From positions 1 to 42,641 of the forward strand of contig JANYDK010000021.1 of NCBI GenBank assembly GCA_025363655.1: a stretch of 42,641 nucleotides of DNA, read 5' to 3'. Shown here one piece after another: positions 8,950-28,410 of this stretch. Each line of letters starts with the position of its first letter. The first letter of the stretch is position 1. The notes beneath the pieces were generated by a model. It searched no databases and was not told the origin of the DNA. It saw only the letters and a program-made list of their open reading frames with translations. This DNA comes from Deltaproteobacteria bacterium. GTDB lineage: Bacteria > Myxococcota_A > Polyangia > Polyangiales > JADJMO01. The translations under genes and the position numbers were made by a program.

Positions 8950-10881
<1,932 letters not shown>

Positions 10882-10956
10882 GGCTTCCTCGTCCGGCCTG
10901 TTCGTTCGGTGGCAGCGGGCTCACTGACTCTCGGGAACCTCGGCAGCGGCCGGGGT

Positions 10957-11001
10957 GAGATTCCGCGGATCCGCCGAAGGCGGGACGCGGGTATGAGAAT
11001 T
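10957..11001 (-). repeat. 45-bp palindromic repeat, copy A (putative ftsH leader)
   Basis: Read leftward this 45-bp segment matches 27813-27857 at 43 of 45 positions, far beyond chance. The core contains CCGCC-TTC-GGCGG, a 5-bp stem with a 3-nt loop, flanked by a second pairing CCGCG/CGCGG across a small internal loop, so an RNA copy would fold into a two-step hairpin. It lies 76-120 bases upstream of the ftsH GTG, downstream of the putative promoter. No protein gene is supported here. Confidence 0.8.
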
Positions 11002-11050
11002 TGCGGGGACCTCATGGAGGTAGTGACTCGCCCTCTGCTTGCCAAGTTAC

Positions 11051-11078
11051 GCGATAGCATGCGTCGTGCCCCCGTCAA
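11051..11078 (-). promoter_or_regulatory. Putative sigma-70-type promoter for ftsH
   Basis: On the leftward strand TTGACG (11078-11073) is followed after 16 bases by TATCGC (11056-11051), the latter preceded by TGC, an extended -10 arrangement. The -35 matches consensus at 5 of 6 positions and the -10 at only 3 of 6. If used, transcription would begin near 11043 and give a leader of about 160 nt carrying repeat copy A. This is a pattern match only. Confidence 0.3.
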
Positions 11079-11131
11079 TCGGTAGAGGTCGGTCCTCGGC
11101 GCGATGGAACGCCGGAAAACCTCGGCGAATT

Positions 11132-12055
11132 TCACCTGCGTCGCGCTCGGCGGCTGCGGCTCGGGTCCTGGTCGCCCAGAGTGTCTGATCCATCCCTCGA
11201 TGAGATGACGATCCCCTGCAAAGGGTCCCAAGCGCCGACCTGTCCTTCGCCCAGCTCGACGCGGGCGCGCGAATTCCGGCGATGAGCAGCCTCGGTGATG
11301 GCGGCGAGGGCAGCCCCGGACGCCGAGGGGTGGGTCCGGCGGAGCGAGCTCGGGGCCAGAGAGAAGACGGCGCACGCCTCGTCGGCGAGGGCGACCAAGT
11401 GGGCGTCGACGCGTGGGTCGATCGTGCGCAGCAACGGGAGCACCTCGTTGCGCACGCGTACGCGAACGAAGCGGTGATCGGCGTTGTTCGGATCGTCGGC
11501 GAAGACGAGCTTCCGCCGTTTGGCGTGGGCGACGAGCTCGTGTCTGCGGGCGCGCACGAGGGGACGGAGGAGGTCGTCGCTCCGCACCGAGAGGACCCCG
11601 AGGCCGGCCAGCGGGGCTCCTCGCAAGAGCCGCATGAGCACGGTCTCGGCGCGGTCGTCGAGGTGATGACCAGTCGCGAGAAAGGTGGCGCCGACCGTGG
11701 ACGCAGCCGCCCGCAAGGCGCGATAGCGAGCTTCTCGCGCCCGCGCCTGGAGGTTGCTGCCCTTCTCGACACGAAGCTGGGTGATCGCAAAGTGCACGCC
11801 GCGCGCCCGGGCAAGGTCAGCCGCGAGCTCGAGCTCGCCCTGTGCCTCGGGTCGCAGGCCGTGATCGACGCCGTGGGCGAATACGCGCAGCACCCCAGAG
11901 CCGCCGACGTGAGCGAGGGTGTCGAGGAGGACCTGCGAATCTAGACCGCCGGAGCACGCGACGAGCACGGTTGCGCCCCGAGCAACCCCCGCTTCGGCGA
12001 GCGCACGACGAGCGTGCGTGGCAACAGAGGGGAGCGACGCGAGTGACGGCCTCAC
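11132..12055 (-). CDS. tilS: tRNA(Ile)-lysidine synthase
   Basis: 307 residues. TilS converts C34 of the CAU-anticodon tRNA-Ile to lysidine, using ATP and lysine, so that it reads AUA. The N-type ATP pyrophosphatase PP-loop is seen as ACSGGLDSQ (SGGLDS about 35-40), followed by HGVDHGLRPEA and the typical LATGHHLDDRAETVLMRLLRG. The core ends with the DDPNNADHRFVRVRVRNEVLPLL motif region. The C-terminal substrate-binding part is short and degenerate, so this is a compact TilS. The GTG at 12055 is chosen, 10 bp after the stop of the upstream lipoprotein gene; an open extension through that gene is not conserved in character. ftsH lies downstream. Confidence 0.9.
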   Translation of the reverse strand: MRPSLASLPSVATHARRALAEAGVARGATVLVACSGGLDSQVLLDTLAHVGGSGVLRVFAHGVDHGLRPEAQGELELAADLARARGVHFAITQLRVEKGSNLQARAREARYRALRAAASTVGATFLATGHHLDDRAETVLMRLLRGAPLAGLGVLSVRSDDLLRPLVRARRHELVAHAKRRKLVFADDPNNADHRFVRVRVRNEVLPLLRTIDPRVDAHLVALADEACAVFSLAPSSLRRTHPSASGAALAAITEAAHRRNSRARVELGEGQVGAWDPLQGIVISSRDGSDTLGDQDPSRSRRARRR

Positions 12056-12065
12056 GACACGGGTG

Positions 12066-12554
12066 TCAGGGCGAGCCACCGACGGGAGGCATCGCGGGCA
12101 TGCCCGGGCACTCGCCATTCGGTCCGCCGAGCGGCAATCCGACGGGCACGGTGTAGACCGCGGAGTCATCGGTGGGGCAGGCGTACTGCATCGAAGCGAG
12201 GCGCGCCTTGATGCAGTCGGTGACAGGGATGGGCAGCGACGACTGCGCCACCTCGCTGCTCTGCACCTTGCCATTTTTGCCGATTTTCACGGCAATTTTC
12301 GCCGAACCGCAGAGGTTGGTGTCGAACTTCCCGGCGTTGGCGACGCACGCGCTGACGATGCCCGGCTCCTTGGCGAGGACGTCGCCCGGGTTCGACGGAG
12401 CGTCGACGCAGGGCGGCGCTGGCGGAGGCGTGGTCGGCGCGGTCGCGGTGTAGACGGTGGCGTTGGCCGGGTCGGGCTGCTTCTTCGCGCAGGCGACGGA
12501 GATGACGGCGGCGAAGCCAGTGAACAGCGCGAGGAGGCCGAGGGCGCGACGCAT
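12066..12554 (-). CDS. Lipoprotein with AgmX/TonB-like C-terminal domain
   Basis: 162 residues. The ATG at 12554 gives MRRALGLLALFTGFAAVISVAC, a signal peptide with lipobox SVAC followed by Ala-Lys-Lys; AGGA lies upstream. A longer frame to 12635 would bury this signal. After a Pro/Thr-rich linker the C-terminal half (VSACVANAGKFDTNLCGSAK, then IAVKIGKNGKVQSSEVAQSS, then VTDCIKARLASMQYACP) resembles the small alpha/beta domain found at the C-terminus of myxobacterial AgmX/PglI and TonB-like proteins: a strand with K-x-G-x-V, then a Cys helix. Paired cysteines suggest disulfides in an exported protein. The role is unknown. It sits between the TolC-family gene and tilS on the same strand with short gaps, so co-transcription is plausible. 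Confidence 0.75.
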   Translation of the reverse strand: MRRALGLLALFTGFAAVISVACAKKQPDPANATVYTATAPTTPPPAPPCVDAPSNPGDVLAKEPGIVSACVANAGKFDTNLCGSAKIAVKIGKNGKVQSSEVAQSSLPIPVTDCIKARLASMQYACPTDDSAVYTVPVGLPLGGPNGECPGMPAMPPVGGSP

Positions 12555-16354: not shown

Positions 16355-17065
16355 TCACATCGACGCGCCGCCGCCTTTGGGATCTTTCGGCGGCGGAGCG
16401 CCGCCACCACCGCCGGCGTTGGCTGCGTTGATGATTTCCTGGAGACGATCGCAGCCCCACTTGTTGCCGGCGACGCAGCCTTGTTTGAGGAGGACGATGC
16501 CCCGCTCCTGGTTGCGGACGACGCCCTTGCCGATGAAGTAGGCGACGCCGGCCGAGCTGCAGCCGGCGGCGGTCGTGAGGAGGCAGGCGTATTCGAAGTC
16601 GACGACGGCGCGAGGGTAGTCTTTGGTGACGCCGAGCCCCGACTCGTACATCACGCCGAGGTTGTAGCAGCCCTGACCGACGCCCGCGTCACAGGCGCGT
16701 TGGTAATACGTGAGCGACTTCGCGTAGTCGACGCTGACGCCCTTGCCGGTGCCGTACATGTAACCGGCGCTGCTGCAGCCGTAGCCGTTGCCGAGCTCGC
16801 AGGCCTGCATGTAGAGCTCGGTCGCGTGCTTCAGATCGACGGGAAAAGGCGTGCCCGATTCGTACATCGCGCCGAGCTGCATGCAGCTGCCGGCGTTTGC
16901 GTTCTTCGTGCACTGCGTGGCGCAGTCGTCGGCCTCGCCGTAGTTGCAGAGGCGCGCGCCCGACGACGAAGACGTGTTCGGCGCGTTGGCCGCGCCCTTT
17001 CCGCCGCAGGCGACGAGGGAGAGAGCGCAAGCGACCACTGCGAACGACAGCGCGCGGAGGGCCAT
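16355..17065 (-). CDS. Sel1-repeat lipoprotein, array member 3 (promoter-distal)
   Basis: 236 residues, ATG 17065. The signal peptide ends in lipobox LVAC followed by Gly-Gly. A linker leads to the cysteine module C-x2-G-x3-D-C-x3-C-x8-C (starting CNYGEADDC), then four or so Sel1-like repeats of about 36 residues with Cys at the repeat ends (ACELGNGYGCSSAGYMYGTG, ACDAGVGQGCYNLGVMYESG). These paired cysteines match the disulfide-linked helix pairs of HcpA-like Sel1 proteins. The tail is Gly/Pro rich. It is the third gene in a head-to-tail array of three paralogues, 36 bp after its neighbour, and so is likely co-transcribed. Location is probably outer membrane or periplasm; the ligand is unknown. 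The ECF sigma gene converges on it. Confidence 0.88.
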   Translation of the reverse strand: MALRALSFAVVACALSLVACGGKGAANAPNTSSSSGARLCNYGEADDCATQCTKNANAGSCMQLGAMYESGTPFPVDLKHATELYMQACELGNGYGCSSAGYMYGTGKGVSVDYAKSLTYYQRACDAGVGQGCYNLGVMYESGLGVTKDYPRAVVDFEYACLLTTAAGCSSAGVAYFIGKGVVRNQERGIVLLKQGCVAGNKWGCDRLQEIINAANAGGGGGAPPPKDPKGGGASM

Positions 17066-17101
17066 CGCACCAGTCTAGCGAATGCGAGCGGACCGAGTCG
17101 A

Positions 17102-18649
17102 CTAAGGGCTTTCGCCGAGCTTCTTCAGCACGTCGCAGCCCCACTTGTTGCCGGTGTTGCATCCCTTGCGCAAGAGGGAGACGCCGCGCGGGCGATCGAC
17201 CTCGACGCCGCGACCTTTGACGTAACAGAAGCCGAGATTGCTGCAGCCGCTGGCGTCGCCGAGGTTGCATGCGCGCTGGAAGAGATCGGCGGCTTTCGGA
17301 TCGTCCTTCGAAACACCCCAACCATTGGCGTACATGCGCGCGAGGTTGGTGCAGCCTTCCGATCGACCACCGTCGCAGGCCTTCTGGTAGAGGGAGACTG
17401 CGGCGACGTCGTCTTTGGTCGCGCCGATGCCGTCTTCGAGGCGCATGCCCGCTTGGTTGCATCCGAGCGCGCTGCCGAGGTCGCACGCGGACATGTAGAA
17501 ACCGAGCGCCTTCTTGTCGTCCTTCGGCAGGCCTTCGCCCTTGGCGCACATGAGCGCGAGGTCGGCGCAGCTCGCGGCGTCCTTGTCCGAGTGACAGCGC
17601 GTGGTGCAGTCGGTGGCATCGCCGTAACGACAACCGGGCGCCTTTTCGGCGTCTTTTTTCGCCTTCTCCACCTTGGTAGCCTTCGAATTCTTGCCGTCGT
17701 CCTTCACCACCATCGACACGGTGGTGACGGCGTTCGGATCGGGCTTGCAGCCGGCGTCGTCGGCGATCATCCCACTCGGACAGGCTTCCTTGGTGTTCGT
17801 CACCACCTGCGCGGCGACGCAGGCCTGGCCATCCCACGCGCTCTTCTCGGGGCACTGCGGCGCATGGGCGAGGCTCGCGTCACCGAACGGAAGGAGCTCG
17901 ATGCGAAGGAGCGCGCCGCAGCCGTCGGGAGGTGTCTTGTCGCCGAGCGTCGCAGCGACGCATTTCTTCTCGTCACCGTCGACGTTGAGGTGCTCGACGC
18001 TCGACGAGCTGCTCGCGCCACCGCCCGCGCCGAAGACGGTCGCCGACGCGCCCACCGACGACTTGTCTCCGGTGAAGAAGTCGAAAGCGCCGGCGACCAT
18101 CCCCGACACGAGGTGCGTCGCGCCCTCGCAGTCACCGTCGAGCTCGGCGCGTGGGACTACGAGGCGATCGGCTTCGAAGCGACCGACGATGGTCATCTCC
18201 ACGTGGAGCGCGCCCGCTTGCGCGAGCTTTCCTTCGAGCTGCGCGGCGCCGAGCGGGACACTGGCCCAGAGCTCGGCGGCGTCGTCGATTCTGACGAGGT
18301 CGTGTTTGCGCGTGATCGGCGTGTAGACGTAGGCGCCCTTCACCTTGCAGGAGCCGAGAACCTCGAGTCGACACGACTCGAAGTGGACGACGACGAGCGC
18401 GCTGTGCGAGAGGGCTTCGAGCTTCGCGCGCGAGGTGCTCGGCCATTCGACGATCAGCGGCTCATGCGCACCGTTGTACTTGCCGTCTTTGCCTGGGACA
18501 CAGCGAGGCTCGCCAGTGGCCTCGAGCGACGAGGTCGGCCTCGGCGAAGTCGTCGTCAGCTTGCCGCCACCACACGCGGCGATCGAGCCCGCGAACGCCG
18601 CGAGACTCGCGACGAGCAGTGACGCGACGGGGAGAGCAGACGCACGCAT
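17102..18649 (-). CDS. Sel1-repeat lipoprotein with large N-terminal domain, array member 2
   Basis: 515 residues, ATG 18649; the signal peptide ends in lipobox IAAC followed by Gly-Gly. Unlike its two neighbours it has about 300 extra residues before the Sel1 part: a beta-rich domain (VVVHFESCRLEVLGSCKVKG, YVYTPITRKHDLVRIDD) with features of a pore- or ligand-binding fold I do not recognise, a Ser-rich stretch, and a Lys-rich linker (KATKVEKAKKDAEK). From about residue 335 come the shared cysteine module C-x2-G-x3-D-C-x3-C-x8-C and Sel1 repeats ending GNKWGCDVLKKLGESP. It probably arose by fusion of the array's Sel1 unit to another exported domain. It lies 40 bp after array member 1 and 36 bp before member 3. 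Confidence 0.88.
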   Translation of the reverse strand: MRASALPVASLLVASLAAFAGSIAACGGGKLTTTSPRPTSSLEATGEPRCVPGKDGKYNGAHEPLIVEWPSTSRAKLEALSHSALVVVHFESCRLEVLGSCKVKGAYVYTPITRKHDLVRIDDAAELWASVPLGAAQLEGKLAQAGALHVEMTIVGRFEADRLVVPRAELDGDCEGATHLVSGMVAGAFDFFTGDKSSVGASATVFGAGGGASSSSSVEHLNVDGDEKKCVAATLGDKTPPDGCGALLRIELLPFGDASLAHAPQCPEKSAWDGQACVAAQVVTNTKEACPSGMIADDAGCKPDPNAVTTVSMVVKDDGKNSKATKVEKAKKDAEKAPGCRYGDATDCTTRCHSDKDAASCADLALMCAKGEGLPKDDKKALGFYMSACDLGSALGCNQAGMRLEDGIGATKDDVAAVSLYQKACDGGRSEGCTNLARMYANGWGVSKDDPKAADLFQRACNLGDASGCSNLGFCYVKGRGVEVDRPRGVSLLRKGCNTGNKWGCDVLKKLGESP

Positions 18650-18689
18650 GGCCCAGGCTTGACGAACGACCAGCCGCGTCGCTTCAGTC

Positions 18690-19436
18690 CTACTCTTCCG
18701 ACTTCATGTCCTTGAGGCGACCACAGGCCCAGTTGTTCCCGGATTTGCAGGCTTTTTCCAGGAGAGCCCCCCCCTTTTCGAGGTCGGTGTCGATGCCGAT
18801 GCCGAACGCGTAGCAGTTGCCGAGCGAGGCGCAGCCCTTCATGTTGCCGAGGAAGCAGCTGCGGTCGAAGTAGGCAGCTGCGCGCTCCTGGCTCTCTTCC
18901 TCGTCGATGCCCTGCTCGTAAGTGACGCCGCGCCAGTAGCAACCGTGGCCGTTGAGCTCTTCACACGCTTGGACGAAGAGCTGCTTGGCGTGGTGGTCGT
19001 CCTTGGGGGCGCCCTTGCCCTCCCAGAGGCGCTCGCCGGACTCGACGCAGCCGTCGTAGTCCTTGGCCTCGCAGCCGCGCGAGAAGTACATGAAGGCCTT
19101 GGCGTCGTCGGCCGCGACCCCGACGCCGCTCGTGTACACCTGCCCGGCGCTGGTGCAGGCGGCGCCGCTGCCGTAGTTGCAGCCCATGTCGAAGTAGACG
19201 GCAGCTTTCACCGGGTCGACCGTGGCGCCCTGTCCCTTCGAGAGCATCGTGCCGAGCGTGTTGCAGGCAGCACCGTTCTTGTTGCCCTCGCACTGTGCGC
19301 GGCAGTCGGCTTCGTCACCCGGCGTGCACGACCCGCCGTTGTTGCCCGAGGTGATGACACCCTTCTTCGGACCACAGGCGACGATGGGCGCGACGACGAG
19401 CAGCGATGCGATGGTGAACAGGGCGGGGAGGCGCAT
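18690..19436 (-). CDS. Sel1-repeat lipoprotein, array member 1 (promoter-proximal)
   Basis: 248 residues from ATG 19436, which starts MRLPALFTIASLLVVAPIVAC, lipobox IVAC followed by Gly-Pro-Lys-Lys; an upstream start at 19472 adds a polar 12-residue tail and is less likely. The cysteine module C-x2-G-x3-D-C-x3-C-x8-C begins CTPGDEADC. Sel1-like repeats follow, each with Cys near the end (GCNYGSGAACTSAGQVYTSG, SCFLGNMKGCASLGNCYAFG), ending GNNWACGRLKDMKSEE, matching the tails of the other two members. It is first in the array and divergent from prkA across 116 bp, so the array promoter should lie there. Its function is unknown; Sel1 proteins usually mediate protein-protein contacts. Confidence 0.87.
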   Translation of the reverse strand: MRLPALFTIASLLVVAPIVACGPKKGVITSGNNGGSCTPGDEADCRAQCEGNKNGAACNTLGTMLSKGQGATVDPVKAAVYFDMGCNYGSGAACTSAGQVYTSGVGVAADDAKAFMYFSRGCEAKDYDGCVESGERLWEGKGAPKDDHHAKQLFVQACEELNGHGCYWRGVTYEQGIDEEESQERAAAYFDRSCFLGNMKGCASLGNCYAFGIGIDTDLEKGGALLEKACKSGNNWACGRLKDMKSEE

Positions 19437-27223: not shown

Positions 27224-27778
27224 ATGCGCCTCTTCTCTCAACCGGTGGTCAGGATGCTCGCCTCTTTCGGTCTCGCCGCCTTGCTCGCGGGCTGCCCGAG
27301 CGGCGGAACGGGGGCTGCTGGAGAGCCGAAGTGGCCGACCGCCAACAAGGTCGCGACCACGCCCCTCCCCGGCACCGCGTCTTGGACCGGCGTCTACTTC
27401 ATCAACACCGCCGGTACGCGCGGGACGATGCATCTCTTCGAAGGCGGCGACAACAAGGTCCACGGCTGCTGGCTCGCCGAAGACAAGCACGCCAAGGCCA
27501 CGTTCGTCGGCGAGACGAAGGACAACCTCGTGAAGCTCGATTGGACCGAGAAGCGCATCGGCTTCGCCGGCGCTCCGGTGCACCTCACTGCCTACTTCGT
27601 GATGACGCCCGCCGAAGACGGCAAGCACATCATCAAGGGCGAGTACGGCAACGACGTCAGCAGCGACGCTGGCTCGCCCTGGGAAGGCATTCGCCAGAAG
27701 AACGCCGAGCCGAAAGAAGACGGCTGCAAGCTCGAAGAGGGTGAGACCATTCCCGTCGAGACCAAGCCGCTCGATTGA
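27224..27778 (+). CDS. Predicted lipoprotein of unknown function
   Basis: 184 residues, ATG 27224 with AAGGA upstream. The signal peptide (VVRMLASFGLAALLAGC) has a good lipobox, LAGC, followed by Pro-Ser. The mature part (TASWTGVYFINTAGTRGTMH, then GGDNKVHGCWLAEDKHAKAT, then IKGEYGND) looks like one small beta-barrel or beta-sandwich domain with alternating hydrophobic strands, as in envelope proteins with lipocalin-like folds. I do not recognise a family. The next gene, a thioredoxin-like lipoprotein, starts 26 bp downstream, so the two probably share a transcript and location. Confidence 0.8.
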   Translation: MRLFSQPVVRMLASFGLAALLAGCPSGGTGAAGEPKWPTANKVATTPLPGTASWTGVYFINTAGTRGTMHLFEGGDNKVHGCWLAEDKHAKATFVGETKDNLVKLDWTEKRIGFAGAPVHLTAYFVMTPAEDGKHIIKGEYGNDVSSDAGSPWEGIRQKNAEPKEDGCKLEEGETIPVETKPLD

Positions 27779-27804
27779 TTGGCAAGTCGAACCCCGGAGG
27801 CATC

Positions 27805-28410
27805 ATGCGTCGAATTCGCATACCCGCGTCCCGCCTTCGGCGGATCCACGGAATCTCCCTTGCGAGCGTCGCGCTCGCAGTCATTTGCGCGAGCACGCTC
27901 TTCGCCTGTGGAACTCCGGCTGCGGGAGGGAAAGGTCTTCCCAACGGCGCCGAGGGGGGCAAGCCGAGCGGTGACGACGGCACCTCCGACGTCACCGATT
28001 TCACGCTCACCGACATCGAGGGCAACCAGGTGTCGCTCTCGCAGTACGTCGGCAAGGGCGCCATCGTGCTCAGCTTCTGGGCGACCTGGTGCAAGCCGTG
28101 CGTCGCCGAGATGCCGCACCTCCAACGCCTCTACGAGACGCGCAAAGGAAGCGGCTTCGTCGTCCTCGCCATCTCGCTCGATGGCCCCGAGACCGAGGCG
28201 GAGGTCGCGCCGTTCGTGAAGACCAAGGGCTTCACCTTCCCAGTGCTCGTCGACAGCGAGACGCGCGCCGCCAGCCTCTACAACCCGCGCCGCGCCGCGC
28301 CCTTCACCGTGATCATCGATCGCCACGGCAAGATCGTGAAGAAGCGGGAAGGGTTCAACCCCGGCGACGAGGCGCAGCTCGAGGCCGACGTCGACGCGGC
28401 GATGAAGTAA
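27805..28410 (+). CDS. TlpA/ResA-like thioredoxin-fold lipoprotein
   Basis: 201 residues. The ATG at 27805 has GGAGG seven bases upstream; a non-ATG start at 27775 is less likely. The signal peptide ends in lipobox LFAC followed by Gly. After a Gly-rich linker the thioredoxin fold begins (VTDFTLTDIEGNQVSLSQYV), with active site FWATWCKPCVAEMPHL and a cis-Pro region AAPFTVIIDRHGKIVKK. Such AhpC/TSA-type TlpA proteins reduce disulfides in the periplasm, for instance in cytochrome c maturation. Remarkably, 45 of the first 53 bases of the gene are copy B of the repeat found upstream of ftsH, so residues 4-17 (IRIPASRLRRIHGI) of the signal peptide n-region are repeat-derived. A strong terminator follows. 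Confidence 0.92.
   Translation: MRRIRIPASRLRRIHGISLASVALAVICASTLFACGTPAAGGKGLPNGAEGGKPSGDDGTSDVTDFTLTDIEGNQVSLSQYVGKGAIVLSFWATWCKPCVAEMPHLQRLYETRKGSGFVVLAISLDGPETEAEVAPFVKTKGFTFPVLVDSETRAASLYNPRRAAPFTVIIDRHGKIVKKREGFNPGDEAQLEADVDAAMK
27813..27857 (+). repeat. 45-bp palindromic repeat, copy B (inside signal-peptide codons)
   Basis: Matches 10957-11001 (reverse strand) at 43 of 45 positions. It lies within the start of the thioredoxin-like gene. The CCGCC-TTC-GGCGG inner stem is intact; one of the two differences (A for G) breaks one pair of the outer CCGCG/CGCGG stem. Both copies have the same reading frame relative to an upstream ATG. Confidence 0.8.

Follow-up and report, generated by a model that had tools for sequence, protein, structure and literature searches.

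The window analysed here, the whole stretch of 42,641 nucleotides, carries a short palindromic repeat twice, once between a tilS-like gene and ftsH and once at the start of a lipoprotein gene. The ftsH assignment made in an earlier, sequence-only reading of this DNA is upheld by Pfam, which finds M41 peptidase, AAA and FtsH_ext domains in the gene downstream of the first copy. The relevant features are as follows.

8950..10881, minus strand: ftsH (Pfam; start region 81-82% identical in three relatives of the same family)
10957..11001, minus strand: repeat copy 1, tilS-ftsH intergenic; minus-strand sequence AATTCTCATACCCGCGTCCCGCCTTCGGCGGATCCGCGGAATCTC
10963..10967, minus strand: outer-stem arm of copy 1, partner of 10986-10990 (fold, and covariation in relatives)
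10971..10975, minus strand: inner-stem arm of copy 1, partner of 10979-10983 (fold and covariation)
10976-10978, minus strand: inner-stem loop of copy 1, TTC on the minus strand
10979..10983, minus strand: second inner-stem arm of copy 1 (fold and covariation)
10986..10990, minus strand: second outer-stem arm of copy 1 (fold, and covariation in relatives)
10989..10999, minus strand: 5' tag of copy 1, TTCTCATACCC, on the unpaired side of the hairpin; consensus TTCACATACCC (20-copy alignment)
11051..11078, minus strand: putative promoter-like motif TTGACG-N16-TATCGC, read by eye
11132..12274, minus strand: upstream gene for a PP-loop ATPase, tilS-like (Pfam)
27805..28410, plus strand: gene for a thioredoxin-like (AhpC-TSA/Redoxin) lipoprotein, starting MRRIRIPASRLRRIHGISLASVALAVICASTLFACG (Pfam, on ORF 27775-28410)
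27813..27857, plus strand: repeat copy 2, in the signal-peptide n-region of the lipoprotein; one outer-stem mismatch

Repeated segments (families D2 and D7) are also present at 16449-19182 of the window. Their translation to GNKWGC-like motifs suggests a cluster of Sel1/TPR-like repeat proteins.

The two copies (45 nt, 96% complementary, 16.8 kb apart) rank first among the inverted repeats of the window, and the repeat search reproduced the pair as originally described, inverted and identical at 43 of 45 positions. Only these two copies in the window match the 25-nt core with up to three mismatches, where shuffled sequences lead one to expect none. When folded as single-stranded DNA, copy 1 gives -11.1 kcal/mol (z -3.0) with a perfect outer stem, CCGCG/CGCGG; the initial bases of its tag deviate from the consensus TTCACATACCC of the 20-copy alignment. 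In copy 2, CACGG replaces CGCGG, creating a C/A mismatch, and the predicted fold lacks the outer stem. Of the two stems proposed to be conserved, the inner one (CCGCC/GGCGG) is indeed found in both copies, whereas the outer one holds for the ftsH copy but not for the copy at 27813.

The 9.03 Mb assembly of the window's genome (G000, 150 contigs) was searched entire. A DNA search with the copy-1 region yielded 20 clear matches. The covariance model derived from the copies recovered 21 full copies (E <3e-7), which occupy 19 loci on 18 contigs; next in rank, after a gap, come remnants. The suggestion that the pair belongs to a repeat family, for which a whole-genome search had been proposed, is thus confirmed with 21 copies rather than two. 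The 43/45 identity of the window copies would also suit a simple local duplication, but the flanks differ at each repeat locus, and the 21 copies genome-wide therefore refute this reading, which retains virtually no probability.

The repeat unit is approximately 39-40 bp long and consists of a (TTC)ACATACC tag followed by CRCG-TC-CCGCC-TTC-GGCGG-ATC-CGYG. The oriented consensus of the 20-copy alignment is (G)AATTTCACATA-CCC[A/G]CG-TC-CCGCC-TTC-GGCGG-ATC-CG[C/T]GG-AAATTC. Exact ends of the repeat are ambiguous, because GGAA/AATTC-like bases are common to both. Classical MITEs have terminal inverted repeats, a target-site duplication and a parent transposon; the repeat has short AATTT/AAATT arms, a target duplication is inseparable from its ends, and no parent transposon was found. 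Most copies in G000 are dispersed, intergenic, short palindromes, and the only array in this genome, on contig C116, consists of three copies head-to-tail with a 40-bp period. Within G000, covariation comes down to a single compensatory pair, at the R/Y position of the outer stem, seen in 8 copies. Copies between genes of the same direction are sense in seven cases and antisense in four, with no sense bias, as counted with crude gene calls (the strand of tilS, upstream gene of the ftsH locus, was taken from the Pfam result); two intragenic copies are antisense.

A word search of the open-access literature found no earlier description of an ACATACC-tagged family. The repeat had no match above gathering score among the Rfam covariance models and no BLAST match in plasmids or phages, and two repeat patterns had none on viral contigs. 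A 17-nt half-pattern had four matches on viral contigs, which are attributed to chance because all are missing the second arm.

Sequence comparison shows that the repeat unit is added DNA at the four sites compared, namely in a xanthine-dehydrogenase-like (XDH-like) gene, an ATPase gene, the lipoprotein gene and the ftsH leader. The XDH-like FAD-domain gene contains a 42-bp in-frame insert, FRESAEGGGTRVCE, that is absent from orthologues in three genomes (52-68% identity), so that the junction reads DGE-FRESAEGGGTRVCE-FPSI versus DG-QLPAI in the orthologues. In the AAA_16-type ATPase gene a 39-bp in-frame insert between LRH and FPGGVFFCDL is missing in paralogues; this comparison is weaker, because it involves paralogues only, at no more than 51% identity. 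Copy 2 of the window adds about 39 bp in frame to the lipoprotein gene and lengthens the n-region of the signal peptide (MRRIRIPASRLRRIHGIS-LASVALAVICASTLFACG); five homologues in the family have short signal peptides. All three intragenic copies keep the reading frame, and the consensus, as read from its sequence, is free of stops in five of six frames. These are clear cases of a 39-42 bp element that lengthens conserved proteins by 13-14 residues in frame.

At the fourth site, counterparts of the promoter-like motif upstream of ftsH were identified by eye in two of three relatives from the same family (TTGACG-N16-TAGGCG in G002, TTGACG-N16-TACCCG in G003); the third, G001, shows no evident -35 part. 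A generic promoter scan gave no score to the motif at 11051-11078, from which a transcription start near 11044 is predicted. By eye, the ftsH leaders of all three relatives are without the hairpin, and the distance from motif to start codon is approximately 70-75 nt in these genomes versus approximately 170 nt in the window's genome. The leader at 10882-11050 is thus about 95 nt longer than those of the relatives, and the repeat covers some 45 nt, about half, of this difference. Since copy 1 lies downstream of the conserved promoter-like motif, it is probably inside the 5'UTR of ftsH, in agreement with its original placement in the ftsH leader. In the predicted fold of the leader the hairpin forms a module of its own, well away from the conserved GAGGAAGCC ribosome-binding region, and for this reason we do not expect a large effect on ftsH translation. 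A putative regulatory role is possible, but the default expectation is that this copy is a tolerated passenger. A reading as an intrinsic terminator was dropped, since the T run is absent; no terminator-like site, and no T run after the hairpin, was found at 10870-11140.

When 56 relatives were searched for the repeat with the full model, the core turned up in three more members of the family and in a few others from the order. A 30-nt core model, run order-wide with stricter filters and few candidates scored per genome, had matches in 10 of the 183 genomes that represent the order. Among 377 genomes from the phylum it matched none beyond the order. Those of the genomes with the core that carry a named record are Polyangiales-type myxobacteria, e.g., Labilithrix sp. 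MYX7 and a MAG labelled Sorangium. A pattern scan of 84,980 genomes returned 20 stretches, approximately 6 of them in myxobacterial records, several of which combine paired outer stems with the TTC loop; the remainder, scattered single matches in GC-rich genomes, look like chance. In Labilithrix sp. MYX7 (JAHBWC010000020.1, locus L125, 3861-3933) two cores lie 51 bp apart and are perhaps coding, with PRPAFGGSA repeated, which suggests a repeat-derived peptide motif.

The lower stems vary from genome to genome, yet they pair (CCAAG/CTTGG, CGAYG/CRTCG, CCGAG/CTCGG, CCGG/CCGG). Among 28 distinct cores from G000 and related genomes, two-sided changes were observed in all five outer pairs (19 cells; a score reached in 0 of 500 shuffles), the relatives having been found by a structure-aware model that favours paired sequences. 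The covariation in relatives that the sequence-only reading had proposed to look for is therefore present.

A weak match in a further genome, G029, shares the tag TTCACATACCC but has a different hairpin, and defines a sister family. Its unit consists of NACATACC, a 7-bp stem, a bulge, AGCC-TTC-GGCT and the returning stem, so the ACATACC tag is common to both families. Its copies number at least 70 in G029, 60 in G043 and 32 in G018; these three genomes belong to one genus (g16) in another family of the same order. A survey of approximately 0.94 Mb, drawn from five further families within the order, found no ACATACC hairpins. The 7-bp stem occurs in at least seven different sequences, all fully paired. 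Across 51 units, chosen by tag and apical sequence with stem pairing not used, two-sided changes affect 6 of 10 pairs (51 cells, 0 of 500 shuffles). The covariation in the sister family is the strongest evidence for pairing being selected or required.

Free variation of the stems also bears on whether the repeat might be a binding site in double-stranded DNA, such as a palindromic operator or a site for a nucleoid protein. It is palindromic and intergenic, and some copies in G000 are near the promoters of divergent gene pairs (L042, L046, L052). However, the complementary lower stems change freely (CCGCG, CCACG, CCAAG, CGAYG and CCGAG in one family; CGCGAAG, CGCCGAG and ACCAAAG in the other), which a sequence-specific dimer site would forbid, and we regard this explanation as very improbable.

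The arrangement of the sister units is highly regular. Neighbouring units in G029 have the same orientation in 30 cases and opposite orientation in none. According to a home-made gene caller, whose calls are crude, 31 of 33 intergenic arrays in genus g16 have a co-directional upstream gene, whose stop codon is for most of them no more than 10 nt, or a few tens of nt, away; arrays between genes of the same direction are sense in 23 of 23 cases. In G029 (C253:7500-15500, L246) several intergenic gaps in the spc/alpha ribosomal region hold sense units, close to rpsE, rpsD, rpoA and rplQ. This operon region is an unusual site for repeated DNA.

The near-strict sense orientation of the sister units is as compatible with a role in RNA as with one in DNA. 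The repeat could be a functional stem-loop at the 3' or 5' end of mRNAs, kept by selection, for example to protect mRNA ends or to set expression within operons, rather than mainly mobile. The strong stem covariation and the position of the g16 units, mostly no more than 10 nt past stops and co-directional (23:0), including the spc/alpha ribosomal region, agree with such a role. Against it, orientation in G000 is mixed (7 sense, 4 antisense, and two intragenic copies antisense), there is no T-run terminator and no Rfam match, and the in-frame intragenic copies, empty orthologous sites and uneven copy numbers in relatives are better explained by mobility. For the repeat in general we consider this explanation unlikely, although for g16 a role in RNA is still in serious contention.

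RAYT transposases are the usual explanation for short palindromic repeats. A true REP/REPIN family spread by a genome-encoded RAYT (TnpA-REP), as the sequence-only reading had envisaged, would account for the size, the mismatch-bearing palindrome, the location after stops and the occasional intragenic copies, all of which match REPs (PMC3733652), and G000 does contain one Y1_Tnp gene. However, long inverted repeats of its own flank this gene, and the ACATACC repeat is absent within approximately 1.5 kb. The gene corresponds to ORF 1318-1896 of locus L031 (C70:51915-55250), an IS200/RAYT-like Y1_Tnp ORF with inverted repeats CCGCGGGCTAGAAGCCCACGGCATCGAGATCTTCAAGACCCGGCTTCGCCGGGCTTCG that are unrelated to the ACATACC repeat; in this arrangement it resembles TIRYTs (PMC3733652). 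In 12 genomes, 28 Y1_Tnp loci were examined, all of them with neither tag nor core within approximately 1.5 kb, and G029, with more sister copies than any other genome, has no Y1_Tnp match at E<=0.001. The genomes are drafts, 83-100% complete, and the absence of a gene from a single one may reflect an assembly gap. The anticipated REP-associated transposase is therefore not seen beside any copy; in addition, the GTAG tag is missing, and paired copies are head-to-tail, never inverted. Spread by a RAYT is accordingly improbable. An autonomous partner was also sought between close arrays in G029; this was rejected, as the genes there encode ribosomal proteins, secY, rpoA and lgt, or are without a Pfam match.

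We consider it quite probable that the repeat is a small, presumably non-autonomous, mobile REP-like DNA hairpin, an ACATACC-tagged palindrome. A conserved, unpaired 5' tag, TTCACATACC, stands ahead of an imperfect hairpin that has a variable lower stem, an internal loop that is conserved, and CC-TTC-GG at its apex. Units would insert whole at AT-rich spots, preferably just past stop codons and sometimes in frame within genes. A trans-acting enzyme may recognise the tag and hairpin in folded single-stranded DNA, by analogy with TnpA-REP and GTAG REPs, for which the tag 5' of the hairpin has been proposed to guide cleavage (PMC8266576). Head-to-tail arrays could arise from re-insertion at, or duplication of, one unit. 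The A/T-rich flank before the tag (TTRAT or AATTT) would be met mostly at stop codons in GC-rich genomes, and this might, as a conjecture, account for the placement and sense orientation in g16; selection against intragenic copies would also have to contribute. The ftsH-leader copy would have inserted downstream of the promoter-like motif and ahead of the start codon, once this lineage had separated from the relatives in its family. Given this position downstream of the motif, it is probably transcribed, placing a stable stem-loop approximately 75 nt upstream of the start.

More tentatively, both families may represent a new superfamily, confined to this myxobacterial order, of mobile hairpins that carry an ACATACC tag and spread by a mechanism other than RAYT, with head-to-tail arrangement and sense placement immediately after stops (e.g., through recognition of TRA-type stop motifs on a single strand), in which lower stems are swapped wholesale while tag and apex stay fixed.

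GTAG REPs are imperfect hairpins of 20-45 nt with an unpaired conserved 5' tag and an internal mismatch or bulge; they lie between genes, in many cases no more than 20 bp from a stop codon, with occasional intragenic copies (PMC3733652, PMC8266576). The ACATACC repeat is likewise a short, tagged imperfect hairpin that is dispersed, mostly intergenic, located after stops and occasionally intragenic. It differs from GTAG REPs and REPINs in having ACATACC at the 5' foot of the hairpin, no flanked RAYT at the 28 Y1_Tnp loci of 12 genomes, neighbours that are head-to-tail (30:0 in G029) instead of frequent inverted HH/TT pairs, and a freely variable lower stem. CGTC REPs have an unpaired CGTC tag, an 8-9 bp stem starting with AT pairs and a CCA tail, and head-to-head dimers predominate (PMC3733652). 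Like those of alpha-proteobacteria and Rickettsia (RPE-4/6), the present family has no dedicated transposase, as far as the Y1 class searched here is concerned; moreover, the G000 copies contain CGTC, the hairpin ends in ATCC, and some copies are in frame. In contrast, the CG of CGTC is base-paired here and replaced in relatives (AAGTC, CGGTC, GCATC), the inner stem is 5 bp without AT, and there are no head-to-head dimers.

Rickettsia RPEs provide the parallel of palindromic in-frame inserts in conserved ORFs (XDH-like +42, ATPase +39 and lipoprotein approximately +39 bp in G000), but RPEs are 100-150 bp long (PMC3767692). The ACATACC elements, at 39-42 bp, differ also in sequence, phylum and a mostly intergenic location. 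Mycobacterial interspersed repetitive units (MIRUs) are not known to be hairpin-based, and occur also at stop/start junctions in sense orientation. Their tandem intergenic placement, as 40-100 bp units in direct arrays (e.g., the rnc-fpg1 spacer; PMC2734929), is similar, but their sequence and phylum are unrelated to those of the ACATACC repeat. By the features tested, the ACATACC family is neither a GTAG nor a CGTC REP. It is a REP-like family with another tag, head-to-tail geometry, strong sense placement after stop codons in one genus, and no Y1 transposase in the genome richest in copies; the spread of REPs that have no transposase (e.g., the CGTC class) thereby becomes directly testable in a new group.
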